Part shown: positions 2,774-41,106 of the stretch, piece by piece
Layout: the number at the start of each line of letters is the position of its first letter
Position numbering within the stretch: the first letter of the stretch is position 1
Source: Prevotella sp.
GTDB lineage: Bacteria > Bacteroidota > Bacteroidia > Bacteroidales > Bacteroidaceae
Assembly (NCBI GenBank): GCA_017934525.1
Contig: JAGBJJ010000073.1
Coordinates: 1 to 43,524 of the forward strand
Length of the DNA stretch: 43,524 nucleotides
Direction of reading: 5' to 3'
Notes under the pieces: model-generated
Database searches by the model: none
Seen by the model: only the letters and a program-made list of their open reading frames with translations
What the model was told of the DNA's origin: nothing
Made by a program: the position numbers and the translations under genes

Positions 2774-2776
2774 ATC

Positions 2777-2804
2777 TTCAATGTTCAATGTTCAATGCTC
2801 AATG
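2777..2804 (-). repeat. Four-unit 7-bp tandem repeat between two genes
   Basis: Three copies of TTCAATG and one CTCAATG lie end to end on the plus strand (CATTGAA/CATTGAG on the coding strand). The array fills the whole gap between the TGA of the 3003-residue gene (2806-2808) and the ATG of the fibronectin-type gene. Copy-number change would alter the spacing of the translation start. Confidence 0.9.
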
Positions 2805-2805
2805 G

Positions 2806-11817: not shown

Positions 11818-11827
11818 AATCGTATCG

Positions 11828-11842
11828 TTTTTTTGGGGGGGG
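11828..11842 (-). promoter_or_regulatory. C8-A7 homopolymer tract upstream of giant gene
   Basis: Seven T and eight G on the plus strand read C8-A7 on the coding strand, ending 10 bases before the ATG of the 3003-residue gene. The C run is followed upstream by a single G and four more C. Runs this long in a leader can slip during replication and change spacing. Whether this one does so cannot be told from a single sequence. Confidence 0.6.
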
Positions 11843-11970
11843 CGGGGAGATTGCGATTCAGTCGCAACACACGCAACCCTTCGTTGTCTTTTCTCGGTTC
11901 TATGTTCGTGATGCGCGCCTTTATGCGGGGGGCGTAGGGGGCTTTCCCCTCATTCAGGCGGCAGCAAACT

Positions 11971-11998
11971 GTTCGTTGTTCATTGTACATTGTTCATT
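11971..11998 (-). repeat. Four-unit 7-bp repeat over the barrel-gene stop
   Basis: Heptamers GTTCGTT, GTTCATT, GTACATT and GTTCATT follow one another on the plus strand. The TGA (11980-11982) and the last codons (Met-Asn-Asn-Val-Gln) of the 594-residue protein lie within the array. No other feature was recognised in the rest of the 11843-11970 spacer apart from short local inverted repeats. Confidence 0.85.
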
Positions 11999-13764: not shown

Positions 13765-13801
13765 AGCCTTGCTGTTGATGGGTTATTGTTTTGAGTTGGA
13801 A

Positions 13802-13865
13802 GGGAATTCCGGCCGGAATTTTGGCTATTCTGGCCGGAATGTGTCTGATTCCGGCCGGAATTCCC
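13802..13865. repeat. Triple 14-bp palindrome at exact 21-bp period
   Basis: Three copies of the palindrome ATTCCGGCCGGAAT start at 13806, 13827 and 13848. The middle copy has one change (ATTCTGGCCGGAAT). Spacers are 7 bp each. The flanking GGGA and TCCC extend the outer copies into an 18-bp inverted pair (13802-13819 and 13848-13865), so the block can fold as one large hairpin or three small ones. It lies in the 147-bp gap between the Ig-like gene and the barrel gene. It may act as an mRNA processing or attenuation element, a DNA-binding site array, or a dispersed repeat. Confidence 0.85.
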
Positions 13866-13911
13866 TTAGAGAGAGAGGGTATGCTCAGTAAGTTTTGCAG
13901 GTGGAGCAAGG

Positions 13912-23400: not shown

Positions 23401-26400
23401 ATGGTAAGCCAAGGTATTCAGTCAGACACCATCGTCACCAAGGTGTTAGACCTGTTGAAAAAAACAAAGGAGGCCCTGGTGGCCGACCTGGAGAATGAAT
23501 TTGTCAGCGTCAGGCAAACAGCCCTGGAGCTCCGTCTGTCGGCAGATGCAACGGCCAGCAATTCTCTGGCCGCCTACTATGACGAGGTGCAGAAATCGTT
23601 TGACCTCATCGACGCCGTCTTTGCCAAAGTGGGCTACGACATCAGCCACTACGACCAGCTCTCGGAGCTAAAGGGCAACATCAACAAGCTTATCGATGAA
23701 ACTGCCGCCCTCGGCGAGAGCATCCGCAAGGCCGTGCGCAACTACCACGACGACAACAGCCTCGACGGCGATGAGGTGGCCGCCCTGCTCGACGAAGGGG
23801 TTCCTCGCATCCAAAACATCCTGACTCTCGTCAAGGATATCAGCAACACGGAGTGGAGCCGCGTGGAAGCCGAGCTGAACCAGTCGGCCGCTGATGTCGG
23901 CACCAAGGTAAAGAATCAGTTCTTCAGCAAGGACTTTGCCCGCGCCATCCTCGACCACATTCTCATTACGCTGCTGAAGAATGCCAAAGTCATCTTCAAA
24001 GATGAGATTGACTACGTGAAGCTGACGCTGACGAATGAGGTGGAAGAACTGACTGGCAGCGCCAAGGACCTGGCCTCGCAGATAGAGCAGCGACTGACCA
24101 AAGAACTGAAGGCTGCCAGCGTAGCCGCTGAAGACCTGCAGCAGGCGCTCCATCTGCTGCTGAAAGAGACGCTCGACGAGGCCAACCGGCTGGAAGCCCG
24201 TGTCTCGCAGGAGCTGAAGCAGAGCCTGCAGCAAGCCAAGCAAGACTTCAACAACGTCTATGCCAAGGTGGCCCATGCCCTGTCGGTGACCCACGCCATT
24301 CTTGATTTCTTAGGCATTCTCAAAGAGAAGGAGATAACGCTGAAACTGCCCAAGAAGCTGAAAGCCATCGTCAGCGACCTGCAAGGCAAGATTGACGCCG
24401 GCAAGGACGGCTTTGCCGATGCCGTGACATCGCTGAACAGCAAGATAGAGGCATCAAGAGAGACTCTGGCCAGCGGCGTGGCCTACGTGAACACAACTAT
24501 TGACAACGGACTGAGCGAGGCATCGCAGCTGCTGGCCAACAAGACCAACATGCTGGCTGGCGAACTGTCAGGCTCGATGAAGATAACCCAGGAGATGACG
24601 GGCATGAGCGTCGCCGCCGTGGGTGCCGTCAACGTGCAGATGCTGACAATGGACATGTACACCGACCAGATAGCCAAAGACACTAAAAAGGCGCTCAGCT
24701 ATCTGTCGAACGGCTTGCAGACCTACACCAACAATGCCAACGACGTAGTGGCCAGTGTGGCTAAGCTGGCCAACGAACGACTGGAGACGCTCAAGAACTT
24801 TGAATACCCCATCAAGATTGAAATCATTGACTGGAAAAGTCTGAAGAAGCTGTTCACACAGCCCGTGGAGCACTTCAAGGCCCTCTACCCCATCAACACC
24901 GTAGAAGATGCTGAGGACTTGATGCGTCGTATCATGGGCATCCTGCACAACATCAACCCCGACATTCCCGACTTCAGCTCACTGCGCTCGCTGCTGGAAG
25001 ACCTGCTCCGCCAGCTGCAGCAGCGCATGATGCAACTCATGAGCGAAGCCAAGGCCAAAGGACGCGAAGTCGTACAGGAGATATGGAACCACTTCCAGCC
25101 GCTCATCACCACTATCCGCAAGGTCATTGACATGCTGAAGGAGTTTGCCCTTGCCTTGAAAGACCAGATGTTCGACGTGCTGAACGATGTCAAGGGCGAG
25201 GTGAAGAGCGTGGTGAAAACTGTCAACGAGGAACTGGCAGAGTTGCAACGGCAGTTTAAAGAGGAAGCCAACCAGCTGAAGAAGAAAGGCGACCAAGCCA
25301 TCACCCAAACATACAAGAATCTGTCGGAGGTATACAATGCCATCGACGAAAATGCCAGCCAGATAGTCAAGCAGATGAAGCAGGCCGCCACTTCCGCCGG
25401 ACAGGCGGCCGACGACATGGCCCAAGCCACTGCTGCCGCAACAGAAGAGTGGCGGGCCAAACTGCCCAAGCTGCCTAAGCTGGCGAAGCTGAACCTGCCC
25501 CGCCTTTCGCGTAACGCCCTAACCGAGCCGCTCATCAGCGCCGTAGAGGATGCCTGGGAGGAGACGGAAGGCATCAACGTGAGAATTGACCTGAGCAGCA
25601 TCATCCAACTGTCAAAGGACATTGAGCAGGTGAAGACTTCGTTCAAGGCCATCAACAAAGACTACTACGAGGCGCTGCGGCTCATCAGCAAGAGCCACAT
25701 TGCCGGCTTCAGCATGCCCAAGATTGACATCAGCAAGAAAGACCTGACCAAGGGTCTCTTCGACACAAGCTCTATCGACACACTGATACCCAAGGGCATA
25801 CAGATACCCGACATTGCCGCTATCGTGGAGGAGACCGCTCTACCTGAGCTGAAAGCGTGGGCCTACGGTGTGGTGTCGAGCATCAAGACCGTCACCAACG
25901 TCGACGTGTGGCGCAAGCGCATGGACACCGTCGTCGCCCAGCTGCAGGCAGAGTTCCAGAGCGACATGAGCAATATCACAGGACTCATCTCCAAAGAGGG
26001 TGCCCTGCAGGTCATCAACCATGCCGGTGCCGTCAAGGCGCAGCTGGCCAGCGAGCTCAGCATCACCGACTACATCACGATTGTACGCACAGCCGTAGAT
26101 GACGTGGTGCTGCCCAACCCCGAGTACTACTTCACTACGTTCAAACGCTGCATACTGAACATTCTGTCGGCCCTGACAAAGAAGCTCATGGCCTGCCTAA
26201 AGAATCTGAAGTCGCAGCTAAAAGAAGCCAAGAACGCATTTGAAAAGAGCATCAGCAACTTCCAGGAGCAAGTGTTAAAGCAGCTCACTCTGAAGATAAA
26301 CGATTTTGAGAAGCAGATAACAGACATCAAGGACGTTGCCGACAGGAAGAAAGAGGCTGCCAAGGCGAAAGCCCTGCAGTATTGCAACGACATCAAGGCA

Positions 26401-29400
26401 CTGAAAGGCTCCATTGAGAGCACGCTGAATGACATCAAGCGCATATCGGGCGAGCTGCAAGACCTGTTTGACAAGCACGAAATAGCCAATGCCATTACTG
26501 CATTCGGCACAAACCTGGCAGAGAATATTGTAAAGAACCTGGCCGAGAAACTGCTGGAACGGCTTGACGACCTGGCTCATGAGGTATGGGGCAACGTCAA
26601 GTCGCAAATCATCAATCCGCTGATTGACACCCTGAAGAACAACATCCTGGAGGTTGTCAAGCGCATCATGACAGAGCATCTGAAAGAGCTGGTCAACAAG
26701 ATAACCGACCTAAGCCGCGACGCCAACTCCAACATCAGCAAACTGCTGGACAAACTGCCCACGCTGCGCGACTTGCTATCAGCTGAACGCCAGTTCATCA
26801 ACGAAGTGACAGCCATCATCAAGCGCAACGAGCAGTTGCAAAGCAAGGTGAAGAAAATCCTGCAGGAGACAAAAGGCAACATCACCAATCTGAATCAGTT
26901 GCCCAGGCTTTTCAAGGAGCTGGCAGGCGACCCGGTCTTCGCCAACAGTGTGAAAGACTTGAAGCTGCACATCAAGGTTGGCACAGAGCAATTGACCAGG
27001 GAACTGCAGAAACAGGCCGTCAAAGAGGCCGTGCAGTATGCCGAGTGCGTCAAGAGGGAACTCGACAAGCTGCCCTCCATCCAGATACCTTATTATTATA
27101 TAACGTGGCTGCAGTGCATCATCTGCGACGTGCTGGAGTATGTCCAGTCAGACAGGCGCCAGGCCAATGTTCTCACATTGGTAAAGAACCTCTACGATGA
27201 CATTCCCGAAGAGGTGAAGGACAAGGTGAGCGACATCCTGCCGCAACTGCCGCCCCTGCCAAAGGGCGGTTTCAGCAGTCTGACAGACAACATCAGATGC
27301 AGTTACGACCTGGACAACAAGTTCTGCAACGTGACACTACTCGACCTGAAACCCGACGGCAAGGACAACGACAAGGGAAAGGTGGACGTGGACTACCGTC
27401 TGCTGCTGCAGCTGTTCCTTTTCGTAGGCACCTACGGACCGGATGCCGAGGAAGGCTTCGACGATGCTGAAGACGAGCCCGACAGCGACCGCACCGACGT
27501 GGTGACCACTGGCGACGACGCAGAGAAAGAAGAAGAAGGGCGCCCGGCCCTCTATCTGATAGTCAGGCTACAGGGACACCTGGACCTGACATTCAAGTTG
27601 GGCGACAACCACACTCTGGATATCGAGCTGGACGGTGCCATCGGCGAAGGTGTCGAACAAACCGACAAGAAGACCGGCAACGGCAAGGAGGTCAGCAAAC
27701 TGAACGAGAAGCACATCGGCTTCTGCCTGACGCGGAAAGACCCCGACAAGGGCGACCTCTCCGTGTTCCACGGGTTGGGCTCGACAAAGGGACTGGGCGG
27801 ACGTGCCATCCTGCATTTCCAGCGCAAGGACAAAGACTCCGCCGGCAATGCCAACCCGCTGAAGGTGCTCAACACCACCTACCTGGATATCAACATCGGC
27901 AACTACCCACAGACGGCCTATGTGCTGTATAACTACAGCTATCCGGAAAACGTGGCCAAAGCCCTCGGTTTGAAGAACGGCGAAGACAGCGTCGCGGGGT
28001 TCACCGCAGGCTATCTGGGCAGCATCAACGACATGGAGTTTGTGCTGAAACTGCGCAACAACAGTTTCTTCGGCATTCTCATCAAAGACGATATCTCAGC
28101 GAAGTTCAGCCTGAGTCTGCTCTACGACTACCTGAAGGGCTTCAAGATAGGCGGCGGCTACAGCTTCCACTACGACATTGACTGCTCAGGACTGAAGCTC
28201 GGCAGTCTGACGATGCAGAGCCTGAGCATCGACATCGGCAGTCTGGACATGGACTGGGGAACGCTACACCTCGGCACCGGCTCGTCGTTCTCGCTCGACT
28301 TCAGTGCCATCGCCTTCTCATTTGAGAATCTGGGCCTCGGCTTCAACCTGAATATTCTGAAGCCCGACTTCAGCATGGGCGACTGGGACTTCGGCGTCAA
28401 CTTCAAATTCCCCGACGGCATTGGCATCGCCATCGACACGACCGGCGTGAAAGGTGCCGGACTCATATCCTACACACCGTCCACGGGAGTGCTCTTCGGC
28501 GTCTTAGATCTGGAGATTATCGACAAGTTTGGCGTGTCGGCCCTGCTGCTTGCCGACTTAGGCATTGTGGAAGGCCACTACTTCAGTCTGGTAGCCATGA
28601 TATCGGCCCGCTTCTCGCCCGGCATCCCCCTGTCGATGGGATTCACCCTGACCGGCATCGGCGGCAGCATCGGCCTGCAGCGCATGATAGACCGCACAGC
28701 CATTCAGAATGCCGTCTACGCAGGCACTCTGGGCAGCGTCTTCTTCGTCGAGAACCTGTCAGAGCACATGGCAGAGATGATTTCCACCTGCGAAAGCATC
28801 TTCCCCTCCAAGCAGAAGCAGTTCTTCTTGGGTCTGCTGGCCCAGATCAGCTATGAGCCGGTGTTGTCGTGCTCGTTTGGCGTGTTCCTCCAGCTGCCTG
28901 ACCCGACGATGATTATGATTGTCGGCATGCTGAAGGTGTCAATCAGCGACACCGACATCATCCGCATCAATGTATGCTTTGCCGGCGGCATCGATTTCTC
29001 GCAGGGCATCTGGTTCGACGCAGCCATTGTTGACTCTGAGATAGTAGGTATCAAGCTGGAAGGCAGCATGGCGTTCCGCCTCTACTGGGGTGGCAGCGCC
29101 AAAGGCTTCCTGCTCTCCATCGGCGGTTTCCACCCTGCCTATAAGCCTGAGGAGGCCATGAATGTGTCGCAGATGAAGCGAGTGGCCATGAAGCTCGACT
29201 ACAAGGTGCTGAAGGTCAGCCTGGAGACGTATCTGGCCATCACGTCGAACACATTCCAGATAGGTGCTCGCCTCGACATCAGGATTGGTTGGAAGAAGTT
29301 CGGCATTACCGGCTATGCCGGCTTCGACGCCCTGTTCCAGTTTGACCCGTTCATGTTTATGTTCGACATCGAGGCTGGCATGGCCGTCAAGTGTGGCAGC

Positions 29401-30177
29401 TGGACGCTCATGTCCATCGACGTGAAACTGTCGCTGTCCGGCCCCCAGCCGTGGCGTGCTTCGGGCTCAGCCAAGTTCAAATTCATCTTTATTCCCATCA
29501 AGGTATCGTTCGACATTGAATGGGGACAGAAACGGCAGGAGCTGCCTAAAAAGCAGATTGAGGTGCTGCCCCTCTTCGAGGAAGAGCTGACCAAGATTCA
29601 GAACTGGAGTGCCGAGACAGGCAGCCGCGACAAAGAGGTGAACTTACTGCAGTCGGCCAGCCAGTCTGAGGAGATGGTTATCGACCCCTCGGGCACGCTC
29701 TCCTTCAACCAGAGTGCCATACCGCTGAACCTCGACCGCCCGATGGATCTTTGCAACAACGCCGTGCCTACCGACGTGAACAACATAGTGATCAAGGGCT
29801 TCAGCGTAGGCAGTTGCCAGTATGAGGCCAAGGAAGAACAGCTGGAGGTCAACGACTTTGCACCGGCCCTCTACTTTGCAATGGACAATAAAGACAAGCT
29901 GAAGTCTCCCTCATACGTAAGCTATCACAGCGGTGTCACGATGGGCGGGCTTGACAAACGCAAGACCGACATGAAGTCGGCCAAGGAAATCAACCCACCC
30001 ACCTACGAACTGGTGACCGGGACCTTCCGTTCGACAGCCAGCAGTGACACGACAAGCAGAAGCAGCAAACGAAACGTCTACAACGTGAAAGCAACCGCCA
30101 ACAACAGTGTGGCATATCAGCGTACTGACAAAGAGTCGTTCGAGCGCTACGTGGAAAGGCTGGATTCTATTTACTAA
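23401..30177 (+). CDS. Giant helical plus DUF6603-like protein (2258 aa)
   Basis: The protein has no signal peptide (MVSQGIQSDTIVTKVLDLLK). Residues 1 to about 1285 are almost wholly helical: long heptad-like runs rich in Lys, Glu, Leu and Ala (for example EEANQLKKKGDQAITQTY and LKSQLKEAKNAFEKSISNF), consistent with extended coiled coils. A very acidic linker lies at about 1345-1380 (DDAEDEPDSDRTD). After it come beta-rich repeats with alternating Leu/Ile and Ser/Asp (GLKLGSLTMQSLSIDIGSLD). Then, at about 1640-1920, there is a block matching my memory of DUF6603: MGFTLTGIGGSIGLQRMIDR, ending GGFHPAYKPEE. The tail (about 2065-2258) is polar. The family has no function known to me. The gene leads a four-gene operon, 15 bp before the next gene. 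A scaffold, conduit or filament is possible but unproven. Confidence 0.8.
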   Translation: MVSQGIQSDTIVTKVLDLLKKTKEALVADLENEFVSVRQTALELRLSADATASNSLAAYYDEVQKSFDLIDAVFAKVGYDISHYDQLSELKGNINKLIDETAALGESIRKAVRNYHDDNSLDGDEVAALLDEGVPRIQNILTLVKDISNTEWSRVEAELNQSAADVGTKVKNQFFSKDFARAILDHILITLLKNAKVIFKDEIDYVKLTLTNEVEELTGSAKDLASQIEQRLTKELKAASVAAEDLQQALHLLLKETLDEANRLEARVSQELKQSLQQAKQDFNNVYAKVAHALSVTHAILDFLGILKEKEITLKLPKKLKAIVSDLQGKIDAGKDGFADAVTSLNSKIEASRETLASGVAYVNTTIDNGLSEASQLLANKTNMLAGELSGSMKITQEMTGMSVAAVGAVNVQMLTMDMYTDQIAKDTKKALSYLSNGLQTYTNNANDVVASVAKLANERLETLKNFEYPIKIEIIDWKSLKKLFTQPVEHFKALYPINTVEDAEDLMRRIMGILHNINPDIPDFSSLRSLLEDLLRQLQQRMMQLMSEAKAKGREVVQEIWNHFQPLITTIRKVIDMLKEFALALKDQMFDVLNDVKGEVKSVVKTVNEELAELQRQFKEEANQLKKKGDQAITQTYKNLSEVYNAIDENASQIVKQMKQAATSAGQAADDMAQATAAATEEWRAKLPKLPKLAKLNLPRLSRNALTEPLISAVEDAWEETEGINVRIDLSSIIQLSKDIEQVKTSFKAINKDYYEALRLISKSHIAGFSMPKIDISKKDLTKGLFDTSSIDTLIPKGIQIPDIAAIVEETALPELKAWAYGVVSSIKTVTNVDVWRKRMDTVVAQLQAEFQSDMSNITGLISKEGALQVINHAGAVKAQLASELSITDYITIVRTAVDDVVLPNPEYYFTTFKRCILNILSALTKKLMACLKNLKSQLKEAKNAFEKSISNFQEQVLKQLTLKINDFEKQITDIKDVADRKKEAAKAKALQYCNDIKALKGSIESTLNDIKRISGELQDLFDKHEIANAITAFGTNLAENIVKNLAEKLLERLDDLAHEVWGNVKSQIINPLIDTLKNNILEVVKRIMTEHLKELVNKITDLSRDANSNISKLLDKLPTLRDLLSAERQFINEVTAIIKRNEQLQSKVKKILQETKGNITNLNQLPRLFKELAGDPVFANSVKDLKLHIKVGTEQLTRELQKQAVKEAVQYAECVKRELDKLPSIQIPYYYITWLQCIICDVLEYVQSDRRQANVLTLVKNLYDDIPEEVKDKVSDILPQLPPLPKGGFSSLTDNIRCSYDLDNKFCNVTLLDLKPDGKDNDKGKVDVDYRLLLQLFLFVGTYGPDAEEGFDDAEDEPDSDRTDVVTTGDDAEKEEEGRPALYLIVRLQGHLDLTFKLGDNHTLDIELDGAIGEGVEQTDKKTGNGKEVSKLNEKHIGFCLTRKDPDKGDLSVFHGLGSTKGLGGRAILHFQRKDKDSAGNANPLKVLNTTYLDINIGNYPQTAYVLYNYSYPENVAKALGLKNGEDSVAGFTAGYLGSINDMEFVLKLRNNSFFGILIKDDISAKFSLSLLYDYLKGFKIGGGYSFHYDIDCSGLKLGSLTMQSLSIDIGSLDMDWGTLHLGTGSSFSLDFSAIAFSFENLGLGFNLNILKPDFSMGDWDFGVNFKFPDGIGIAIDTTGVKGAGLISYTPSTGVLFGVLDLEIIDKFGVSALLLADLGIVEGHYFSLVAMISARFSPGIPLSMGFTLTGIGGSIGLQRMIDRTAIQNAVYAGTLGSVFFVENLSEHMAEMISTCESIFPSKQKQFFLGLLAQISYEPVLSCSFGVFLQLPDPTMIMIVGMLKVSISDTDIIRINVCFAGGIDFSQGIWFDAAIVDSEIVGIKLEGSMAFRLYWGGSAKGFLLSIGGFHPAYKPEEAMNVSQMKRVAMKLDYKVLKVSLETYLAITSNTFQIGARLDIRIGWKKFGITGYAGFDALFQFDPFMFMFDIEAGMAVKCGSWTLMSIDVKLSLSGPQPWRASGSAKFKFIFIPIKVSFDIEWGQKRQELPKKQIEVLPLFEEELTKIQNWSAETGSRDKEVNLLQSASQSEEMVIDPSGTLSFNQSAIPLNLDRPMDLCNNAVPTDVNNIVIKGFSVGSCQYEAKEEQLEVNDFAPALYFAMDNKDKLKSPSYVSYHSGVTMGGLDKRKTDMKSAKEINPPTYELVTGTFRSTASSDTTSRSSKRNVYNVKATANNSVAYQRTDKESFERYVERLDSIY

Positions 30178-30192
30178 AAAAACTATCAGACC

Positions 30193-33100
30193 ATGGCTAT
30201 ATATTTATTTCCTTATCTCAGAAAAGGTATCAGTAACGGCATCACCAAAGGTGAGCTGAAGGCGGGAAAGACGCGGGCCGAGCTCGACGTAAAGCTTTCC
30301 GTGGACTATCACCGTGTAGACAGGCAGAAGAAAGCGGAAACGCCAAAGGCCGTAACCATCCAGCTGATAGGTCCCGCCGACGTGAAATCGCTCAACAAAC
30401 GGGCCGTGAGCCACTTCTTCCCCCCCGAGAGTGCAGCCATCAAGATGACCAGCGTCTATATGCCCTACATGGAGTTTTTCGAGGAAGACTTGCCTTGGCG
30501 CTATACGCCGCTGCCAGTGGAAAGAGACGCCGCCAACAAAGAAGTGGTGCTGCCATGGATGGCGTTGATTGCCGTGCGCAAGGAGGAGGTGAGCTTCAGA
30601 ATAAGCAGCGCAGGCATCAGGATTGCCACGCTGAACATCAGCGACCAGCAGCGCTTCAGCGAGATTTTTGCACAGAGGGAGGCTCTGCTGCATTCGGCAC
30701 ACGTGCAAATTGAGTCGGCACGGGCGGTCAGCGACGTGGATGCTGTGCTTACGGATAATCCTGACTGCGGCATCTCGCGACTATTCTGCATGAGCACATT
30801 GACACCCGACACGGAGTACTACGCCCTGCTCATCCCCGTCTTCGAGTCGGGCCGCCTGGCCGGTCTGGGCCTGAGCACCGCTCAGGTGAGTGCCAACACG
30901 CTGGCATGGAGCGCCAAGGCCGACGGCTGGACGCAGCAGGCCAACGAAGGACAGCACCCCGACGGATGGTCGTTCCCCGTATATTACCGATGGAAGTTCC
31001 TGACGGCCAAGACAGGCGATTTCAAGTCGCTGGCTGAGAAACTGGCCTTCACCAGCGCCAACGACTACAAGACATTGGCGTCGAGCCTTACCGTCGACAT
31101 CTCATCGTCAGGCCTGCCCGACTACGAAAGCAAGCGGCCAAGCGGTAAAGAAGAGGTGATTGACGTGCAGGCCGCCCTGAAGCTGATGGGCACTGCCGGA
31201 AGCAGCAGGACAGAGAGCCAGGACTATCGCCGATGCCTGAAAGACTTGCTGAAGGACAACCCCGTATTCCAGGAGAATGCGACAGGTGCCGCCAACGAGA
31301 AGGAAGACCCGTGGGTGGTGCCGCCGATTTATGGTGCCCGGCAGGTGCTGGCCACCGCACTTGACACACAAACGGGAGCCAACAAGCTGGTGAGTGAGGT
31401 CAACCTGCAGCTGTCGAACCGCATTGTGGCCGGCATGGGCAGCTCCGTCGTCAAGGAAAACCAAGAACAGTTTGTCAATCGGGCCTGGCGTAAGGTGGAG
31501 AAAATCAATGAGGTGAACCAGAAAATCAGGGAGTACTACCAGATACTGCAAGCCAACAAGCAGGCCCAGAAGAAGTACGACTTCAAGAGCCTGCGCAGTA
31601 AGAAAGACCGAATACAAGTGACCGACAAACGCCGTGCCCTGGGACTTGACGTCACCTACCGCACCCTCCAGGCATCAGGCATCTTCAAACGTAACGTCAC
31701 GGCCGAGCGGCTGCTGGAACAGGCTTCGGCGGATCCCAAGCTTGTCAGCCGAATGGTGAAACGCGGCATCACGCCGTCAGAGATTCTCAGCATCTTCGAT
31801 AGTAAGATGTGGAGCGAGCGTGCCAAAAAGGAGAACCGCAACCTGGCCATCATCAACAGTTTCAAACAGAACAGACAGTTTATCGGTCCCTTCGAGGACT
31901 ACGATTATCTGGAGGACCTGCTGGATCTGGAATACTACAAACAGCAGTTCAGCTTCACCTCGGAGGCCGGGCGTGAATATCTGACGCCCGTGAGTGGCGG
32001 CATGAGCGATGAAGACTACCACGCTGCGTTCGACATGGCAGCCACGGCGGCGAAGTCGCTGTATTACACAGTTGTGAAGTCTACGTTGGCAGCCATTCCG
32101 AAAGGGTCACTCCTGGACAAGACCGACAACAACAAGAAGTTGCGTCCCATGCAGCTGCAGCTGAAGACACCTGCAGGACCGGGCTTCCTGCTCAGACAGA
32201 GTGACGCCCTCATCCTGGGCGGCAGCAAAGCCTTGGCCGTGGAGTACAAGGAATGGCAGAAGGACACAAAGGCAACGACGCAGAAATATCTGTACATCAC
32301 GTCGTGGGACAAGCTGGAATCAAACTTCCCTGGCAAAGTGACCTATTGGCTGAAGACGCCGGCCCGCTCGGTGAGACTGCAGAGGCAGGGCAATGTCTTT
32401 AAGCCCATGAACAATTCTAACTGGTGGCATAACATCCCCTTTCATTACAAAACTCTGACCTCTCTGCCGTTTTATCAGGATCTGGTGCGATTCAGACAGG
32501 TGTTTGCCGAATTATATGGCTGGGTTTTCTTAAGGTCGAACAGCGGTCGCTGTTCCCTGTTTACCCTGGCCGACGGGAGGACACTGGTGGTAGACTGGTC
32601 GCTGAAAAAAAATTTTGTAGACTTCTACCTCTATCCGGCCAATACAACGGTGAAGGTGAAGAAGCTCAACAGCGCTTATATCATGCCTTTCCGCTTTGCC
32701 TACAACGACGCCACAATGAAGTTCAACGGGCATGTAAACTCCGACAAAAACAGCATCGAACTGAAAATCTCACAACTCCACAACGCGCTCGACGAAGTGA
32801 TACGAATGCTTGAAAACATCGAACGCGTCCGATGGGAGCCAAACTATGTGGAGATAGCTGATCTGAACGAGCAGACGGCGGGGGTCAAGGTGATCAGGGC
32901 GCAGGAGATAGCCGACAAGCCTGGTTACGACGACGATGACTATGGCGACCAGGCGGGCGAGAACCTTCCGAAGCAAGTGGCCGAAAAGGTGAGCCAGGTG
33001 GCTGGCAGCATCGGCAAATGGCTGGAGCGCGACATGGTTGAGCAGCAGGACAGCGGGAAAGCCAAGCCTATATCAGACATAGACCCCAATCAGCTGGCAG

Positions 33101-33885
33101 CAGAACGCATAGCCGAAATCATCAGCACCTACGGCGACACCGAAGATAACCAGGTGGAGGTCAACTGCGACAGCAAATATCCTGTGATGGCCTATCCCGA
33201 CTTTCTGGACCCGACGTTCTTCTACTTACGACAGTTGTCGGAGGCCTACGTCCTGCCGTCGTCAGGCAGTCTGGGCAAGAACACCATCACGTGCTTCGTG
33301 ACCAATCCTGCGTTTGAAGAGGCATTCCTGATGGGTATGAATACCGAGATGGGCCGCGAGCTGCTCTGGCGCGAGTACCCCACCGACCAGCGCGGCTCAT
33401 ACTTCCGCAAGTTCTGGGACCAGTTGGAGCTACCCCTTAAAAAAGATTTGGAGAAAAAGTATTACGACGTGCAGGCGCTGCACCAATGGAAAGCACCCCT
33501 GGGCCAGAACCACACTGCAGGCAAGCAGTCGATGACGGTGTTTGCCATCAAGGGCGAGCTGATGCAGGCCTACCCGAAGACGGCCGTCTATCTGGCCACG
33601 TCCAACTATCTGGCCAACCGCGAGAAGGCGGCCAAGGAGCGCATCAGCGCCGAGATGATGTCGTGGCTGTCGGAAAGCACATGCCTCATAGGCTTCAAGG
33701 CAAGCCTCGACGTGCTGCGCGGCAAACTGCTGGTGTTCGAACAGGAGCGCGGCAACCTGCAGTACAGGCTGGCTGCGACGGCCGGCAGCACCGTCAATGA
33801 CAGCATGCTCATCAATGGCGGCTACATCAAGCTTGAGACGCCCACCATCTACACCATCTCGCTGAGTCAGTTGATGAAAATATAA
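30193..33885 (+). CDS. Conserved uncharacterised protein (1230 aa), giant-gene operon
   Basis: There is no signal peptide or membrane segment. An N-terminal region (1-190) is followed by FCMSTLTPDTEYYALLIPVF (about 199-218) and FPVYYRWKFLTAKTGDFKSL (about 261-280). VNLQLSNRIVAGMGSSVV lies at about 402-419. Near the C-terminus is MGMNTEMGRELLWREYPTDQ followed by RGSYFRKFWD (about 1047-1076). I remember very similar phrases in proteins annotated only as hypothetical in actinobacteria, cyanobacteria and myxobacteria, so these look like family signatures. An acidic, low-complexity segment lies near 910-940. The gene starts 15 bp after the DUF6603-like gene and ends 22 bp before the next, indicating co-transcription. 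Function unknown. Confidence 0.75.
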   Translation: MAIYLFPYLRKGISNGITKGELKAGKTRAELDVKLSVDYHRVDRQKKAETPKAVTIQLIGPADVKSLNKRAVSHFFPPESAAIKMTSVYMPYMEFFEEDLPWRYTPLPVERDAANKEVVLPWMALIAVRKEEVSFRISSAGIRIATLNISDQQRFSEIFAQREALLHSAHVQIESARAVSDVDAVLTDNPDCGISRLFCMSTLTPDTEYYALLIPVFESGRLAGLGLSTAQVSANTLAWSAKADGWTQQANEGQHPDGWSFPVYYRWKFLTAKTGDFKSLAEKLAFTSANDYKTLASSLTVDISSSGLPDYESKRPSGKEEVIDVQAALKLMGTAGSSRTESQDYRRCLKDLLKDNPVFQENATGAANEKEDPWVVPPIYGARQVLATALDTQTGANKLVSEVNLQLSNRIVAGMGSSVVKENQEQFVNRAWRKVEKINEVNQKIREYYQILQANKQAQKKYDFKSLRSKKDRIQVTDKRRALGLDVTYRTLQASGIFKRNVTAERLLEQASADPKLVSRMVKRGITPSEILSIFDSKMWSERAKKENRNLAIINSFKQNRQFIGPFEDYDYLEDLLDLEYYKQQFSFTSEAGREYLTPVSGGMSDEDYHAAFDMAATAAKSLYYTVVKSTLAAIPKGSLLDKTDNNKKLRPMQLQLKTPAGPGFLLRQSDALILGGSKALAVEYKEWQKDTKATTQKYLYITSWDKLESNFPGKVTYWLKTPARSVRLQRQGNVFKPMNNSNWWHNIPFHYKTLTSLPFYQDLVRFRQVFAELYGWVFLRSNSGRCSLFTLADGRTLVVDWSLKKNFVDFYLYPANTTVKVKKLNSAYIMPFRFAYNDATMKFNGHVNSDKNSIELKISQLHNALDEVIRMLENIERVRWEPNYVEIADLNEQTAGVKVIRAQEIADKPGYDDDDYGDQAGENLPKQVAEKVSQVAGSIGKWLERDMVEQQDSGKAKPISDIDPNQLAAERIAEIISTYGDTEDNQVEVNCDSKYPVMAYPDFLDPTFFYLRQLSEAYVLPSSGSLGKNTITCFVTNPAFEEAFLMGMNTEMGRELLWREYPTDQRGSYFRKFWDQLELPLKKDLEKKYYDVQALHQWKAPLGQNHTAGKQSMTVFAIKGELMQAYPKTAVYLATSNYLANREKAAKERISAEMMSWLSESTCLIGFKASLDVLRGKLLVFEQERGNLQYRLAATAGSTVNDSMLINGGYIKLETPTIYTISLSQLMKI

Positions 33886-33907
33886 ACCATAGAAATATAA
33901 ACTGATT

Positions 33908-36900
33908 ATGAGGACCACATATCAAGAGTCTCTGCGGAAAGAGACGAGCCAGAAGTTTTCACGCAAGGATGTCAACACGTCGCTGCTGATGTTCCCCGTC
34001 CGACTGGAGACAAAGTTCAAGATGAAGAGTCTGGAGAAGATCCACGAGCCCGACAGAGTGTACTACACGTTCTGCGAGCTGTGGGCTGTGCTGCGCCGCT
34101 TGCAGAGCTCGTCAGAGGAACGCGTGCTGCAACAAATGGAGCGACTGCAGGCCGAACTGGAGCGGCTGGACATCATCTACAAGGAAGACAAGGGCATGCT
34201 GCGGATGCTGATGAAGAAGATGCGCAGCATCATGCCCACCGTTGACCTGTGCGACCGCTGGACGGAGCTGCAAGCGATTCTGGACGACGTGACCGTGAGC
34301 TGCTCTGTAAAAGACAATGAGTCGACACTGCTGCTCAACGAGATGGATCACTACACGCGGCTGCTCGTCAACACATGTAAGACGCCACCCTACAGCGGCT
34401 ACAAGCGTCTGCAGATGAACGGTATCTACTCACAAACCGTGAAGTTCAGGATGGCACTGAAACACTACCGGCAGTGCTACCGCTTCATCCTCGACATTGA
34501 GGGCAAGGTGAAACAGCTGCCGGCTTTCCTCAACAAGAAGCAGTATCACAAATTCGAAAGGCTCATCGAGCAGTGGGCGGCATTGGCCGACAGCCAGACA
34601 CTGATGGAAAACTTCCAGACGACGATGAAGAAGAATACCGTGTGCAAGGCTCAAGCCGACCTGCAGTATTTCGTGCAGCAGAAGCTGGCGCCCTGCCTGG
34701 CCCGCATCAAGCGCGACAAAGACCACCTGCTCTCTCTGATGGCAGGCAAGCTGAGGCGACGGGCGATAAATCCGGGAAAACCTCAGCCGTATGAGAGTCT
34801 GAAGCGCTACACCGTGCTGGCCACCATGCTGATGAGTCTGGAAATCAAGCGCAAGCGCGGCGTGCACCTGCCCGACCTTCAGGCAGAGATACTGAGGAAA
34901 GTGAAAACGCTGGCCGACTGCACATACTTCCGTTATGAGTGCGAGCGAACGTGGGTCGGCGGACTGTTCGACGTGATGAACCGCCGTATGTCGGCGGGCA
35001 CCAAGGTGACGGTGCTCGACAAGCAGTGGCTCCATGCGCACGATGAAATGCTCAGGCGGAGCACCGGCCGACAAGGCTGCCCGCCGCTGCGCCACTACGG
35101 CAAGAAGGAAAAGGTGCTCTGCGTGCGCATCTATCCCGACGTGCTGGCACTTACACAAAGTGTCAGACAGCTCACCAAAGCTGAGTATGAGACGGGCAAG
35201 GACTTCTGGCTGAAATACATCTTCTCTGACGACACCAGCTACAAGAACTCGCTGTGGGCGGCGGTGTGCGACCTCTATCCGCCGCATCGGGCAGCCTTCA
35301 TTCTCAGGCAGACCTTCCCCTCGGCCAACTATCATATCATCTGCCGGCGGGCCCGCCAGTTCCACGACGACCAACTGACCGAGGCGGACTTCGTCAAAGA
35401 GATTGACGAGAACTTCCTGAACTCGTTCCCTACGACCTATGTCGACAGCAACGAGACGATGTTCACCGTGCCGGCCACCAACCTACTGCCTGACCGCTTC
35501 ATCCTGCAGGCCACGCTGAAGCTGAGCGACAGCAGGCGCACCACCATGACCCAATACGGTCACCGCCTGCCCACCAGCCTGCAAGTAGGAATCGACATGA
35601 ACAACCTGGAAAACGCTGCCTCTGAGCAGAACGAGCAGCTCTACCTGAACGGCAGCCTGCGGTGGATGACCGACTACGACGAGGCCGAGCACATGGGCAT
35701 GGCCATCACGCTGCCGCTGGAGCACTTCACTGCGGTTGTGGGCAGCAAGAAAAAACGCGTGTTCCAGTTCGACTCCATCTTTGTCTACGGCGTTCACGAG
35801 GCACCTGCCGACGAGTGCAGCAACATTCTGCAACAGCTTTTTGACGCCCACCTCTACAGCGAAGAGGCCATCGACCTCATCCCGTCGCAGACGGCCACCA
35901 ACATCCTGACCGACGACGACGAGGGCTATGCCTACGACAGCGGCGAAGAGGCGCAGCGCGAGCGATTCAAATATCAGGCACAAAACTGTGTCACGCCTTA
36001 CAGGATGACCGCCAAGGAAGACCTGAAACTGCTCAACATGCTGTTCTGCATGGACAAGAGCGTGCTGGGCAACATCAAAAACCCGTCGGGCAAGCGACAG
36101 CGTGAAGTGGAAAATGCCAGGATGGTGAACAGTGCCCTGCTGAGCATCATCGACAACGCTGCCGTCAAAATCATCAACAACACACCACTGCTGAGAGACT
36201 ACTTCGTCAACGACGTGCTGCCACGAGGGCCTTTCCCCATGATACGCATCAGCAACCAGCCCTACGGCATACTACCGGCGTGCGACTTCAAGCACCTGAA
36301 CTTCAGCCATTCCTCGCCGTTGTGGATGGTAAGGAAGCTGCTGCTGACGCTCACCGTCCACTGGAACAGCATCACCCGCTTCGTGGAGTACAGCGGCGGA
36401 CAGGCAGGCAGTGATGCCGACACGGTCAACAATGCCGGACTGCAACAATATCTGGCTGCCATCAGTTGCACACCGGCCAGCACATCGCTGTGGAAACGCA
36501 AGATTTTCGGCGACAAGACACTGATTGACCCTGCGTTCTTCAGAGGCGAGAAGCGCGAACATCAGCTGGCCGAACTGCTGGACCTGGCTCACTCGCTGGG
36601 ACTGGAAATCACCATGGACGAGCTGAAAAGCTACGTGCCCCACTACAACGAGATTCCGCTGATTCCTGACGACGAAGGCGCTGACACCAGCAAGACGTTT
36701 GTAAAAACCAGCGACGGCCGGTTTACCGGCATCATCCGCCAACTGCGCGCCAAGGGTATCACCACACAGCAACTGTCCGACGAGGAACTGAACCAACACA
36801 TCATCGAGTTCTTCGACCTCTTTGCCTACCGGCTAGACTGCTGGCTGATGGGACTGCTGAGCAACAAAATCAGGACACGCATGGAGAAAGGCACCCACCG

Positions 36901-39139
36901 CATCGCCCTGGGCTGCTTCGGATGGATTTTCAATCTGGAGGAACCCGACGAGGAAAAGAATAAGAAGCAGAACAAAGACAACACGAACGAGTATATCCTG
37001 GCACCATCGGTGAACCACGCCATCACCGGGGCCGTGCTGCGCAGTGCCTACGTCAACACCCACAAGGACGGCGACAGCGACTACCAGATGAGTGTCAACC
37101 TGTCATCAGAGCGAGTCAGAAAAGCCATCCGCATGATTGAGGGTCTGCAAAACGGCCTCTCGGTAGGCTCCATCCTGGGCTGTGACTTCGAGCGGGCCAT
37201 CCACGACTATCCGGGTCTTGAGCTGGATGTCTGCATCTACGAGCTGCGCAAGCGCTACCCGCTGGTGACGAGCACCAAGGAAGACGGCAAGACAGCTCCC
37301 GACAGCACTTCGGTGGTGAACGGCGCCAAGCTCCTGGATGACTACAGGCAGCAGCCGAAGGGGGAAAATTGGATTTCGGGAATGAACCTTTTCAAAAATA
37401 CGAAGGATATCAAGAATAAGGAGAAAGCGCTGCTGAAGCTGATAGACCGGATGGACGACGAATACGACGCCCTGACGGATGTCATCCTCTCAGAGGGTGT
37501 CTACAAGCTGACGCAGGGCAACACCGAGGCCGTCAACGCACTGAACCAGGCCATGCAGGAGATGCGCAATATCCCGCGGCCGGAGGTGACGGAGATTCCC
37601 ATTACCAGTGCCCAGATTGACGGGCGCATGGTGGTGGCTCTCGACGTCAACGCCCAGCCTACCGTCGCCGACGACCTCTTGGCTGCGACGGAGCCTAAGG
37701 TAGACGCCTGGTTCAACCAAATGCTGGGCGATATTGCCAACATCGACGTCGTATTCCGCTGGGAAGACGGCGGGCTGGAACAACTCACGTTGAAGAGTCT
37801 CGGCGTCAGCGCTTCGGCGCTGGTCTATCTGTCGGCCAACAGGCAGGCATTCGTTCACTATCTGGAGACGCTCTACTGGCTGAAGGAAGGCGTGCGCCGA
37901 AGCATCGTCACCGACGGAGCTCCCGTGGGGCTCAGCCTTGACGAGGTGGAACTGGCCGTTGAGAACCTGCGCGAACTGATGACCAACGCTGCCGTCTTGA
38001 AGAACGACGATCTGGTCAAGGAGACCGGCCTGGAGAGCCATGCCTCTTACACTGACTGCCAACAGAACTACTACGTGCTGAAAAACAGCATTGAACTGAC
38101 CGTGAAGGAGATGGTGGAAGCGCTGAATGAGCAGGCAAAGGTGCAAGTTGAGACCAACGACGACTACGACCGTGTGGCCATGGACGATGCGGCAGTGACG
38201 AGAGCTGTCAGGCTGATGGCAAGATGCTTCAAAATCGGCCAGACGGACGCCCTGGACATGGTAAGCGAGGGGCTCTTCACCCGAGGCAACACGCTCTATG
38301 GCGACACCGAAGCCTTCATGGCTACAGTGGAGAGCCAGCACGCCTTCTATAAAGCCATGCAGACCAAGATAGCCAACCTGACCGAGCTGATTGTGGCAGC
38401 AGAGAAAATGGTGGAAGGTGCCGCCGAAAAGACGTACAGGACGTATGCCGACGCCATACGCAAGCTGCTGCTCTCAAACTATATGGTGGTGCCCGTGTTC
38501 AGTCCTGACGACAACGTGCCCGTGGAGCTGCTGAAGGAAGAGAGCGTGCGCCGTAGTAGTATGTTCACCAACATCAATGCCATAGGCGCAGAAGAGGTGC
38601 TGGCCGATATGGCCCGCGTGGAAAAACCGATGATGCACCTGCACCAGCTGCGGCTCTTCGCCAAGTGCAACTTCCTCGAGCAGGCTGACGTCGTGCCCAT
38701 GCAGATTCCTGTCATGATGGATTCCCAGAAGAAAGCCGAGTGGCTGGGGGCTGAGGTGAAGGACGAAAACCATGTGCACGACGCCTTCACGTATCTGGTG
38801 ATGAACCCTCAGAAACTGGTGGAGACGGTAGGCGAAGCCAACTGCCAGATGGCCGGCATCGTGCTGGACCACTGGGTGGAACGCATCCCCTACCGCGAAC
38901 AGACGGCTGCAATGGCCTTCAACTGCGACCAGCCCGACGCCGAGGCTCCGCAGACGCTGCTGCTGGCCGTGTCGACGAAGGACAACGCTTCGCGCTGGTC
39001 GGAGGAGATGTTGCTCAATGCACTCAAGAGTGCTATCCACATGGTGAAATGCAGGGCCGTAGAGCCAGACATGATCAGCAACGACGCCTGGGCATCGGGT
39101 ATCTTCCCGTTGATTGACTACAAAGACATTAACAAATAG
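33908..39139 (+). CDS. Conserved uncharacterised giant protein (1743 aa)
   Basis: The start at 33908 (MRTTYQESLRKETSQKF) follows the previous stop by 22 bp. No signal peptide is present. Signature phrases are LLMFPVRLETKF (about 26-37), VLCVRIYPDVLALTQSVRQL (about 403-422), then FWLKYIFS and AAFILRQTFPSANYH, and FPMIRISNQPYGILPACDF (about 776-794). Between the first two is a helical, basic insert (about 40-390) that I do not remember from relatives. I recall the PVRLETRF, VRVYPD and QPYGVLP phrases from hypothetical proteins encoded beside relatives of the two neighbouring genes in other phyla. The middle and C-terminus mix helices with acidic loops. No enzyme motif was recognised. Cytosolic complex partner is the inference. 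Confidence 0.75.
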   Translation: MRTTYQESLRKETSQKFSRKDVNTSLLMFPVRLETKFKMKSLEKIHEPDRVYYTFCELWAVLRRLQSSSEERVLQQMERLQAELERLDIIYKEDKGMLRMLMKKMRSIMPTVDLCDRWTELQAILDDVTVSCSVKDNESTLLLNEMDHYTRLLVNTCKTPPYSGYKRLQMNGIYSQTVKFRMALKHYRQCYRFILDIEGKVKQLPAFLNKKQYHKFERLIEQWAALADSQTLMENFQTTMKKNTVCKAQADLQYFVQQKLAPCLARIKRDKDHLLSLMAGKLRRRAINPGKPQPYESLKRYTVLATMLMSLEIKRKRGVHLPDLQAEILRKVKTLADCTYFRYECERTWVGGLFDVMNRRMSAGTKVTVLDKQWLHAHDEMLRRSTGRQGCPPLRHYGKKEKVLCVRIYPDVLALTQSVRQLTKAEYETGKDFWLKYIFSDDTSYKNSLWAAVCDLYPPHRAAFILRQTFPSANYHIICRRARQFHDDQLTEADFVKEIDENFLNSFPTTYVDSNETMFTVPATNLLPDRFILQATLKLSDSRRTTMTQYGHRLPTSLQVGIDMNNLENAASEQNEQLYLNGSLRWMTDYDEAEHMGMAITLPLEHFTAVVGSKKKRVFQFDSIFVYGVHEAPADECSNILQQLFDAHLYSEEAIDLIPSQTATNILTDDDEGYAYDSGEEAQRERFKYQAQNCVTPYRMTAKEDLKLLNMLFCMDKSVLGNIKNPSGKRQREVENARMVNSALLSIIDNAAVKIINNTPLLRDYFVNDVLPRGPFPMIRISNQPYGILPACDFKHLNFSHSSPLWMVRKLLLTLTVHWNSITRFVEYSGGQAGSDADTVNNAGLQQYLAAISCTPASTSLWKRKIFGDKTLIDPAFFRGEKREHQLAELLDLAHSLGLEITMDELKSYVPHYNEIPLIPDDEGADTSKTFVKTSDGRFTGIIRQLRAKGITTQQLSDEELNQHIIEFFDLFAYRLDCWLMGLLSNKIRTRMEKGTHRIALGCFGWIFNLEEPDEEKNKKQNKDNTNEYILAPSVNHAITGAVLRSAYVNTHKDGDSDYQMSVNLSSERVRKAIRMIEGLQNGLSVGSILGCDFERAIHDYPGLELDVCIYELRKRYPLVTSTKEDGKTAPDSTSVVNGAKLLDDYRQQPKGENWISGMNLFKNTKDIKNKEKALLKLIDRMDDEYDALTDVILSEGVYKLTQGNTEAVNALNQAMQEMRNIPRPEVTEIPITSAQIDGRMVVALDVNAQPTVADDLLAATEPKVDAWFNQMLGDIANIDVVFRWEDGGLEQLTLKSLGVSASALVYLSANRQAFVHYLETLYWLKEGVRRSIVTDGAPVGLSLDEVELAVENLRELMTNAAVLKNDDLVKETGLESHASYTDCQQNYYVLKNSIELTVKEMVEALNEQAKVQVETNDDYDRVAMDDAAVTRAVRLMARCFKIGQTDALDMVSEGLFTRGNTLYGDTEAFMATVESQHAFYKAMQTKIANLTELIVAAEKMVEGAAEKTYRTYADAIRKLLLSNYMVVPVFSPDDNVPVELLKEESVRRSSMFTNINAIGAEEVLADMARVEKPMMHLHQLRLFAKCNFLEQADVVPMQIPVMMDSQKKAEWLGAEVKDENHVHDAFTYLVMNPQKLVETVGEANCQMAGIVLDHWVERIPYREQTAAMAFNCDQPDAEAPQTLLLAVSTKDNASRWSEEMLLNALKSAIHMVKCRAVEPDMISNDAWASGIFPLIDYKDINK

Positions 39140-39153
39140 ACACCAGTAGCAGC

Positions 39154-41106
39154 ATGAAACAGATTCAGAAAATTGAAAACTATATCGACAACAACGTCAC
39201 GCTGAACCAGCAGACCGTCAGTGAAATAAATCCTGTGATGAGCGAGCGCATTGAGGGTCGTACCCGCGACAACGACATCACCGAGGCACTGAGGTTCAGA
39301 GTCCACGATCCGCTGTGGATGCTGACACGGCAGTGGCAGATGGGCGAGTTCCGGGGCAACAACGTCGGCACGGCGATGGCCGTGAAGTGCAGAGTTGCCC
39401 AAGACACCTGCCAGAAAGATCCCATCGAGCCTGTCACGGAGTGTATCAATCAGCCCATCGACCTGCTGGTGCGGGTAGAGTCGGCCATCTATGCCCTCGA
39501 CCTGATTCGCCAGTACGCCCAGTGCCCGGCAGCCACGTTCAAGTCGTTTGCTGCTTTCCTGCTAAAGAGCTACCCGATAAAGTGGGAGCAGGAAGAGCTT
39601 ATTCTCGACAGCGACCTGACCACCGCCCATGAGCGGGGGCTCAACAAGTGCCGGCAGAAGTTTGTCAATGCCTACAAGGGAAAGGCCTTCGACGGCTACC
39701 AGCTCTATGTGGTTTTAAAAAACTACATGAAAACCAAGAAGCAAAACGACAACCACATCTTCAGCCAGGCCAAGAAACAGAATATTGACCTGAAGCTCTC
39801 TTCGGCCAACATCAACAAAATCATGAATGCCTACGTCGAATGGTTTCAGAAGAAATACATTCCAGGCGCCGCACAGAACACATGCTGGCAGGAGCGCGAC
39901 CTCTGCTACGAGGCGAAGATAAGCGCCGGCAGCGAGCAGTATGTCGGCACTCAGTATCAGGGGGGCAGGGTCTCATGGCACACCTTCGACTATAAAAGCA
40001 GCGGGAAAGCTGCAGCCTACCGGAATGTTTCAAACGTGCTTTCACTGCCGACGCTGGCCTCTTACGCCGGAGCACCCAACAAGCGGCTGTGGGAGTTTGA
40101 AGACCACAAGGTCTTTATGGGCAACAGCGTGGAGCAGCAGTCTGACGCCAACCTGGTGTTTATGAAATTTGCCACGATGTATGGCAATGACTGGATGCTC
40201 ATCCCACTGCAGACGGAGATTGGAAAAACTATCAGCGTCGTGTCTATCGAGGTAAAAGACACTTTCGGCGATACCATCAACATCAACGGAAACAGCCGGG
40301 CCGGTGCCAACGACTCCGTGGGCAAAAATCAGGAGAGATGGCAGATGTACACCAACTCGCTGCAAAACACCGAAGACGGCAGTGCGGCCAACAGCCTCTT
40401 TTTCACGCCTCAGCTGGCGGCCACTCTTGAGGGCGACCCCATCGAGGAGGTGCAGATGCTGCGCGACGAGATGGCCAATATGGTGTGGGGAGTTGAAACC
40501 CTCATCCCCGACGGATGCGGCACATCACTTGACGGCAACCTCTATGCCGCCCAACTGGCCGAATACGTCAGCCAGCTCTACGATGAATACCGCGTCAAGC
40601 CTGCCCCGAAGACGTTCGCCTTCGGACAAGACGGCGAGATGGAGACCAAGACAGACGACAACCAGCTGGCGGCCGCCTATAAGTATCTGCTGCAGAGCAC
40701 CGTGCCGTTCAACTGGATTCCGTTTGTGCCCCAGCATAAGACTGGCTCCAAGGACATCTTCTCAATGGGAGGACGCGAAATGATTTTGCGCCGTGGCAAA
40801 ATGCCATGCTACGTATGGGACGTCGACGCCAAAGGCAACAAGCAACTGCTGAGAACTGGAGTTCGCCCGCTGACCACCATCCTGCGCAACGGTCTGAAGC
40901 GGATAAAAAAAGGCAGCTGGGAAGAAAAACCGCTCCTAATCAACGAGGAGGCCGTGCAGGCCACAGGCATTAAGCTCGTGAAAAACTTTCAACGCACACG
41001 TTGGCTCAACGGCAAAACCTATAATTGGCTCGGCATCTATAAGATACTGGCCAAGACCGAAGGTTCAAGCGGACTGGAATTCGATGTCTTAAAAGAGAAT
41101 AAATAA
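39154..41106 (+). CDS. Conserved uncharacterised protein (650 aa), end of giant-gene operon
   Basis: The gene begins 14 bp after its neighbour and starts MKQIQKIENYIDNNVTLNQQ, without a signal peptide. The clearest signature is near residues 46-75: FRVHDPLWMLTRQWQMGEFR followed by GNNVGTAMAVK. I remember DPLWLLARQWQLGEFQGEDAG as the hallmark of a widespread hypothetical family whose genes adjoin relatives of the two preceding ones. Later stretches include WMLIPLQTEIGKTISVVSIE and FNWIPFVPQHKTGSKDIFSM, mixed alpha/beta with many aromatic residues. The protein is much shorter than its partners. No terminator is obvious directly after the stop; a promoter for the next transcript begins 35 bases later. 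Confidence 0.75.
   Translation: MKQIQKIENYIDNNVTLNQQTVSEINPVMSERIEGRTRDNDITEALRFRVHDPLWMLTRQWQMGEFRGNNVGTAMAVKCRVAQDTCQKDPIEPVTECINQPIDLLVRVESAIYALDLIRQYAQCPAATFKSFAAFLLKSYPIKWEQEELILDSDLTTAHERGLNKCRQKFVNAYKGKAFDGYQLYVVLKNYMKTKKQNDNHIFSQAKKQNIDLKLSSANINKIMNAYVEWFQKKYIPGAAQNTCWQERDLCYEAKISAGSEQYVGTQYQGGRVSWHTFDYKSSGKAAAYRNVSNVLSLPTLASYAGAPNKRLWEFEDHKVFMGNSVEQQSDANLVFMKFATMYGNDWMLIPLQTEIGKTISVVSIEVKDTFGDTININGNSRAGANDSVGKNQERWQMYTNSLQNTEDGSAANSLFFTPQLAATLEGDPIEEVQMLRDEMANMVWGVETLIPDGCGTSLDGNLYAAQLAEYVSQLYDEYRVKPAPKTFAFGQDGEMETKTDDNQLAAAYKYLLQSTVPFNWIPFVPQHKTGSKDIFSMGGREMILRRGKMPCYVWDVDAKGNKQLLRTGVRPLTTILRNGLKRIKKGSWEEKPLLINEEAVQATGIKLVKNFQRTRWLNGKTYNWLGIYKILAKTEGSSGLEFDVLKENK

Follow-up and report, generated by a model that had tools for sequence, protein, structure and literature searches.

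A conserved operon of four giant soluble proteins, a candidate effector platform of bacteria and archaea

Four giant genes without export signals

We describe an operon of four giant genes on the + strand of a Prevotella sp. contig (JAGBJJ010000073.1, assembly GCA_017934525.1). The window, that is, the whole stretch of DNA analysed, spans positions 1 to 43,524 of this contig, which belongs to a Bacteroidota genome bin of 76.5% completeness. The four open reading frames (ORFs) are intact, encode 2258, 1230, 1743 and 650 amino acids and are separated by 15, 22 and 14 bp. None of the four proteins has a strongly hydrophobic N terminus or signal-like start, and none contains a 19-residue stretch of transmembrane strength (top Kyte–Doolittle mean, 1.49). 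The ORF calls and the hydrophobicity scan confirm an earlier note, made from the sequence alone, of four intact, signal-less genes with these codon counts, spaced 14–22 bp apart.

That note had also called one gene DUF6603-like, which is borne out: gene 1 (23401..30177) is a member of DUF6603 (PF20248) by curated score (residues 1599-2114, E = 7.7e-93, 312.2 bits against a gathering cut-off of 27 bits; Pfam). No function is recorded for the family, and we found no paper naming DUF6603 or PF20248 in the open-access library searched; papers elsewhere, or using other names, are possible. The domain (28195..29742) was modelled as many long antiparallel strands, with a predicted local distance difference test (pLDDT) of 64.9 and a predicted template modelling score (pTM) of 0.56; pLDDT exceeded 80 over most of residues ~1670-2040 of the gene 1 protein (P0001). 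Residues 1-1290 (23401..27270) are helical-looking and poor in Gly and Pro, and are referred to below as the helical arm.

The other three genes are without known family. Gene 2 (30193..33885) has an N-terminal domain that recurs in a second type of DUF6603 operon (see below) and, at residues ~1050-1076 (33340..33420), a very conserved motif with the family consensus MARELLWREYPTDQRGSYFRQFW; one string that looks Walker-A-like lies near its start. Gene 3 occupies 33908..39139. Gene 4 (39154..41106), which served as the search marker, carries the conserved motif DPLWMLTRQWQ at residues 52-62 (39307..39339), and its model (pLDDT 77.2, pTM 0.74) has a helical domain at ~91-235 and is otherwise mostly beta.

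Library searches returned little else. Genes 2-4 matched no Pfam family above cut-off and the four proteins no NCBIfam family above curated cut-off, while PADLOC and PHROGs gave weak matches alone, the best of them in the helical part of gene 1. These included one tail-protein match in PHROGs (E = 0.0026, helical region) and, in the same region, weak ZorA (PADLOC) and apolipoprotein-like (Pfam) matches, which are what amphipathic or coiled helices could produce and do not count as evidence for either family. Zorya was rejected as a candidate: the ZorA match reached 30 bits in the helical region only, and there is no membrane segment such as the MotA/ExbB/TolQ domain of ZorA, which partners ZorB, calls for. 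No credible solved relative was found for genes 1 and 3 searched singly or for profiles of genes 1-4 (best 0.0025, to helical or repeat proteins). The operon had been noted as a candidate for an undescribed system, and in the libraries searched it matched no described machine.

Conserved order and patchy spread

Relatives of gene 4 were collected in three ways. A profile scan of 84,980 species genomes with a single peptide pattern gave 483 relatives, of which the best 80 were kept; tblastn with gene 4 matched 14 plasmid records and one phage-labelled record; and a search of 198 Bacteroidota genomes found three beyond the window's own (4/198 counting it). One of the best 80 (L105) comes from the same genome as one of these three. 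We opened 14 non-window loci (10 from the plasmid records, three from the genomes and one from the phage-labelled record), with hosts that include Streptomyces, Nocardia, Rhizobium, Paraburkholderia and two haloarchaea. Genes 1-4 all stand in order in 11 of them, gene 1 being known from the record annotation in one of these and gene 4 from its tblastn place plus annotation in two, where the ORF caller had chosen different frames. A Gemmatirosa locus has genes 2-3-4, its gene 1 not being found by the ORF caller used, with no further search; MT835531 holds genes 3-4 at the record end; and S. anthocyanicus holds gene 4 alone.

The best 80 loci gave the same picture. Six-frame profile searches found gene 3 before gene 4 in all of the 73 loci whose upstream sequence reached 2 kb (it was shorter in 7/80). 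Where 9 kb or more was available, gene 2 was found upstream in 64 of 65 loci, the miss being L095. DUF6603 was encoded in 28 of 28 genomes chosen from these loci versus none of 14 control genomes. Median gaps along genes 1-2-3-4 were 0, 11 and 5.5 bp over 19, 62 and 64 pairs, with starts assigned mechanically and with weak-score pairs and gaps outside -300 to 1000 bp excluded. Because the order recurs in distant relatives, it is above chance, and a conserved four-gene operon is near certain. For genes 2, 3 and 4, comparing the distance matrices over 59 loci gave correlations of 0.904-0.922, against a highest value of 0.185 in 1000 permutations per pair; such correlation can arise from operon coinheritance alone and is not proof of contact. 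The earlier claim of a conserved set of partners of unknown function is strongly supported by the order, by DUF6603 in 28/28 and by these correlations, and a survey of gene neighbourhoods found homologues of the four co-occurring rather than rarely together. Coinherited giant proteins without signals make a large intracellular assembly plausible, as far as sequence can suggest one.

Several copies depart from the common layout. On a Rhizobium plasmid (L010:7053-14941), genes 2 and 3 are each divided into two adjacent ORFs, which suggests domain boundaries. One pair of tandem cores (L097/L162) has a DUF6734-like gene and, by eye, a cation-efflux-like gene between the cores. Extra inserted domains (L014, L009/L015) occur in haloarchaeal genes 3 and 4, annotated as BGTF surface and lamin-tail domains, and in a Streptomyces gene 2, annotated with VCBS repeats. 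Such annotations, together with the beta-rich models of DUF6603 and gene 4, would suit a surface or matrix structure (adhesive or S-layer-like) exported by an unrecognised route. We consider this very unlikely: the window's four proteins lack a signal peptide and any membrane segment, and a surface role leaves unexplained a slot of hydrolases with their own docking-like domain, described in the next section.

Ten bacterial phyla and the haloarchaea are represented among the loci. Nine of these phyla are intermixed on a quick tree of 52 gene 4 proteins (Gemmatimonadota is the tenth phylum), which suggests transfer between phyla, with the caveats that the tree is a quick one and that several rows are metagenome bins; a 'Crenarchaeota' entry (L033) falls among Bacteroidales, so bin contamination is to be kept in mind for single rows. 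Of 301 genomes from the window's family, two, one of them that of the window, have near-full DUF6603, and a genome of the window's genus (G403) has the operon with different neighbours. The distribution is patchy and the operon probably mobile. On the phage side, matches came from one short IMG/VR contig and one 'Bacteriophage sp.' record; the latter (L028, MT835531.1) is an unverified, unannotated record from human faeces that ends in genes 3 and 4.

DUF6603 marks a class wider than the four-gene operon. It scored above cut-off in 10 of 198 Bacteroidota, six of them without gene 4, and the seven loci of these six genomes (L171-L177) form a second DUF6603 operon type, which has a different partner and a large third gene of its own. 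The wider class follows because this second type shares both DUF6603 (hhalign probability 99.8) and the gene 2 N-terminal domain (96.3); no profile match to gene 3 or gene 4 was found in it. Its neighbours change as well, with MBL-fold or DUF4135 proteins in three loci, and close to one locus are a tail-collar protein and an S74 chaperone domain, the S74 match just below cut-off.

A P-loop protein of 211-326 amino acids adjoins gene 4 in 17 of 99 clustered loci, mostly of Bacteroidota (among them L038-L042, L044, L052-L054, L067 and L080), on the opposite strand in many of the examples listed; it is not present in the window. It may resemble the P-loop part of the tRNA enzyme MnmH, and is possibly an extra partner or a housekeeping gene. 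In the window itself, a class II aldolase and a hybrid sensor kinase lie upstream of the operon on the opposite strand, and a DUF362 lipoprotein-like gene lies downstream. A separate secreted cluster, P0006-P0009 (768, 3003, 594 and 1407 amino acids), occupies 482-18135 on the - strand. Its giant, P0007 (2806-11817), was rejected as a part of the system, P0006-P0009 forming a separate conserved cluster in another genome (G373, L203) with no core in 20 kb, and as a core relative, hhalign against each core profile having given nothing. The P0007-like protein of G373 (3478 amino acids) has a weak partial DUF6603 match over cut-off.

Hydrolases beside the core and their shared domain

The most informative part lies outside the window: in relatives, a slot beside the core is filled by changing hydrolases, many of which share a domain. 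We examined upstream DNA in 28 genomes, seven with the helical arm in gene 1 and 21 without. A predicted hydrolase adjoins a core copy in 19 of the 21 genomes without the arm, 13 of these assignments being made through the shared domain or a Pfam match above cut-off and six on weaker grounds. Eight genomes (G198, G202, G205, G207, G209, G210, G214 and G217) have a trypsin-like protein with the shared domain and one (G208) a subtilase (S8) with it. Other enzymes above Pfam cut-off were M64 (G206), PhoD (G203, and a second copy of the core in G202), PLD (G204) and M15 (G221); matches below cut-off were M64 (G212, G216) and PhoD (G215). Three genomes (G199, G200 and G201) have a protein that looks caspase-like by eye, and G199 and G201 additionally a Matrixin-like or beta-lactamase-like gene, below cut-off. 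The two without a predicted hydrolase have a DUF2515 protein (G211) and an unrecognised 640-aa protein (G213).

In many lineages the enzyme stands directly before gene 1. The proteases of G202 instead follow gene 4, and the enzyme of G203 sits between tandem core copies, away from the locus through which the genome was found. Further tandem cores (L095/L157 and L154) have an enzyme gene between the end of one core and the next gene 1, and a haloarchaeal gene before gene 1 (L014:22912-25668, 918 aa) encodes a strong hydrophobic segment and has no Pfam match. The trypsin-like label draws on H, D and GDSG motifs and on one NAL1 match below cut-off (see below). By a strict test, 8 of 21 proteases hold all three of these motifs; a looser pattern finds them in 18. 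A caspase-like label for the proteins of L145, L146 and L170, given by eye on an H and RGCRxG, was confirmed neither by Pfam nor, for L170, by the PDB.

A profile of the shared domain was built from ten protease C termini. In a six-frame search it matched 25 proteins in 14 loci, namely 23 GDSG proteins and two subtilases, the ten seeds matching by construction. The 28 whole genomes hold 15 copies in nine genomes, all 15 beside the operon, some seeds coming from these genomes. Among 395 Bacteroidota there were four copies, three of them immediately upstream of gene 1 in a full core (G033, which earlier searches had found, and the newly found G539 and G696), only the ten best candidates being scored in some genomes, these three included. 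Of the genomic copies, 18 of 19 are thus beside a core. The domain matches no Pfam model and has no credible solved relative. Being nearly confined to the operon, and there on two unrelated protease folds, it therefore looks like a docking domain, probably for the core.

In one strain pair the slot enzyme changes far faster than the core. Genes 1-4 of the Chitinophagaceae G199 and G201 are 93.7, 91.8, 86.1 and 92.3% identical; the gene directly before gene 1 is 29.9% identical, the two genes further upstream 41.8 and 72.8%, and one strain carries an extra HExxH protein. Five changing cargo proteins of different kinds (including L146:8580-11929 and L170:4024-8027) have MCKT[TS] at their start or at most three residues from it, perhaps a shared leader. 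These data bear on a second alternative, that the operon encodes a megacomplex inside the cell, for metabolism, storage or protein processing, in which proteases and other hydrolases act on the giant proteins or on a product, maturing or degrading them. Four signal-less proteins with hydrolases next to them in many genomes are what such a complex would show. We judge it improbable, since the enzyme class varies by lineage, the classes have no obvious common substrate, the enzyme of the Chitinophagaceae pair outran the core, and the distribution is patchy, not lineage-wide.

Several of the cargo candidates could be expected to act on a cell wall: the M15-like peptidase, a beta-lactamase-like SxxK/SDN protein (below cut-off), a PG_binding_1 domain (Pfam) and GH25 genes near the Rhizobium operon. 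With the second-type locus near tail-collar and S74 genes, they point towards a particle that is released or injected. Such a carrier, shaped like a capsule or a needle, would be built in the cytosol, leave the cell by lysis and bring hydrolases to another cell's envelope. By analogy, giant cytosolic proteins with associated cargo also occur in extracellular contractile injection systems and Tc toxins; the four proteins match none of their families in Pfam, NCBIfam or PHROGs. We regard such a particle as unlikely. The four proteins gave no match to a sheath, tube, baseplate or portal family, inspection by eye of neighbour clusters common to at least four loci revealed no gene for lysis or secretion, and no contractile sheath, tube or baseplate was found among 11 window proteins by Pfam (neighbours elsewhere were not scanned systematically).

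The window's own lineage differs. Among the ORFs searched, the helical arm matched nine distinct proteins (E 1e-4), all belonging to the Bacteroidales-type lineage of the window; at the same threshold it was found in gene 1 of no other genome, the gene 1 of a few GC-rich loci being missing from the called ORFs. In one arm-bearing genome (G218), gene 1 is preceded at a distance of 365 bp by the gene for an 822-aa protein with a signal-like start, possibly a secreted peptidase. In four others (G219, G220, G222 and G223), gene 4 is overlapped at its end by a further gene, which encodes DUF6734 in the one that was Pfam-scanned. This lineage appears to have an empty enzyme slot, with the 1290-residue arm fused to DUF6603 in its place.

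A possible effector platform

We give about an even chance to the reading that the operon is an undescribed effector platform used in biological conflict, with the four giant soluble proteins as one complex for hydrolytic effectors. The four proteins would assemble into a single large platform. In many lineages the effector would be a hydrolase with a gene of its own, directly before gene 1 or after gene 4 and often fast-changing, and many of these enzymes would dock on the platform through their common C-terminal domain. The platform would keep the enzyme inactive or packaged, and free or deliver it on contact with a phage, a competitor or another cell; in the lineage of the window, the separate enzyme would be replaced by the helical arm that is joined to DUF6603.

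The nearest known theme is that of effector-associated-domain (EAD) conflict systems. As set out by Kaur et al. (2020, PMC7159879), these pair an unvarying core with effectors of trypsin, caspase or metallopeptidase type that can be exchanged, and have dedicated coupling domains, as here; their cores are NTP-dependent (MoxR-vWA, STAND-like, GTPase) and the same small domain occurs on core and effector. Relative to that description, one difference stands out: our shared domain is on 25 proteases and on no core protein (E 1e-4). As for the NTPase, no such family was recognised in genes 1-4 by Pfam, NCBIfam or PADLOC, but the P-loop protein that adjoins gene 4 in 17/99 loci, though not in the window, and the Walker-A-like string of gene 2 may bear on this point.

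Several observations weigh against the effector platform. The window copy has no adjacent exchangeable hydrolase, so the effector role is carried over to it from relatives, and in the seven arm-bearing genomes of the 28 (G218-G220, G222-G225) no hydrolase was seen directly before gene 1 by eye, without a Pfam scan, such genes as precede it looking unrelated. The shared domain was absent from the core proteins in the profile search. One copy of the domain is an orphan, on a trypsin-like protein (G029, L211:10380-11792) with no core within 20 kb and no DUF6603. In the core, neither a trigger nor a secretion component was found. The slot protease of L052 matches NAL1_N and Nal1_C, both below Pfam cut-off, a likeness to the plant NARROW LEAF 1 (NAL1) proteases; the bacterial enzymes differ in having an extra C-terminal domain and in sitting beside a giant core, and that of L147 matches nothing in Pfam or the PDB. 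Rapid change of the slot enzyme is not universal, because in two Nannocystis gene 2 (94% identity) and protease (89%) are about equally conserved. Finally, a conserved operon with varied hydrolases could also fit processing or metabolic systems.

A fuller form of the effector platform, which we put forward tentatively and think less likely to hold in all its parts, is a conflict machine of bacteria and archaea: a giant four-protein carrier, with no NTPase recognised in it, that would take on a rapidly exchanged cargo (proteases, phosphatases, lipases or wall hydrolases) through a dedicated docking domain and would deliver or unleash it. In gut and rumen Bacteroidales, this cargo would have been replaced by the 1290-residue helical arm, which is maybe membrane-acting.

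With 483 relatives of gene 4 in 84,980 species genomes, the operon is a common and very costly set (17.7 kb here) of bacteria and archaea. For three of its four proteins, Pfam, NCBIfam, PADLOC and PHROGs give no credible match. The enzyme slot and the shared protease domain offer a handle on its function: they name a candidate docking partner and predict an antagonism or immunity phenotype.

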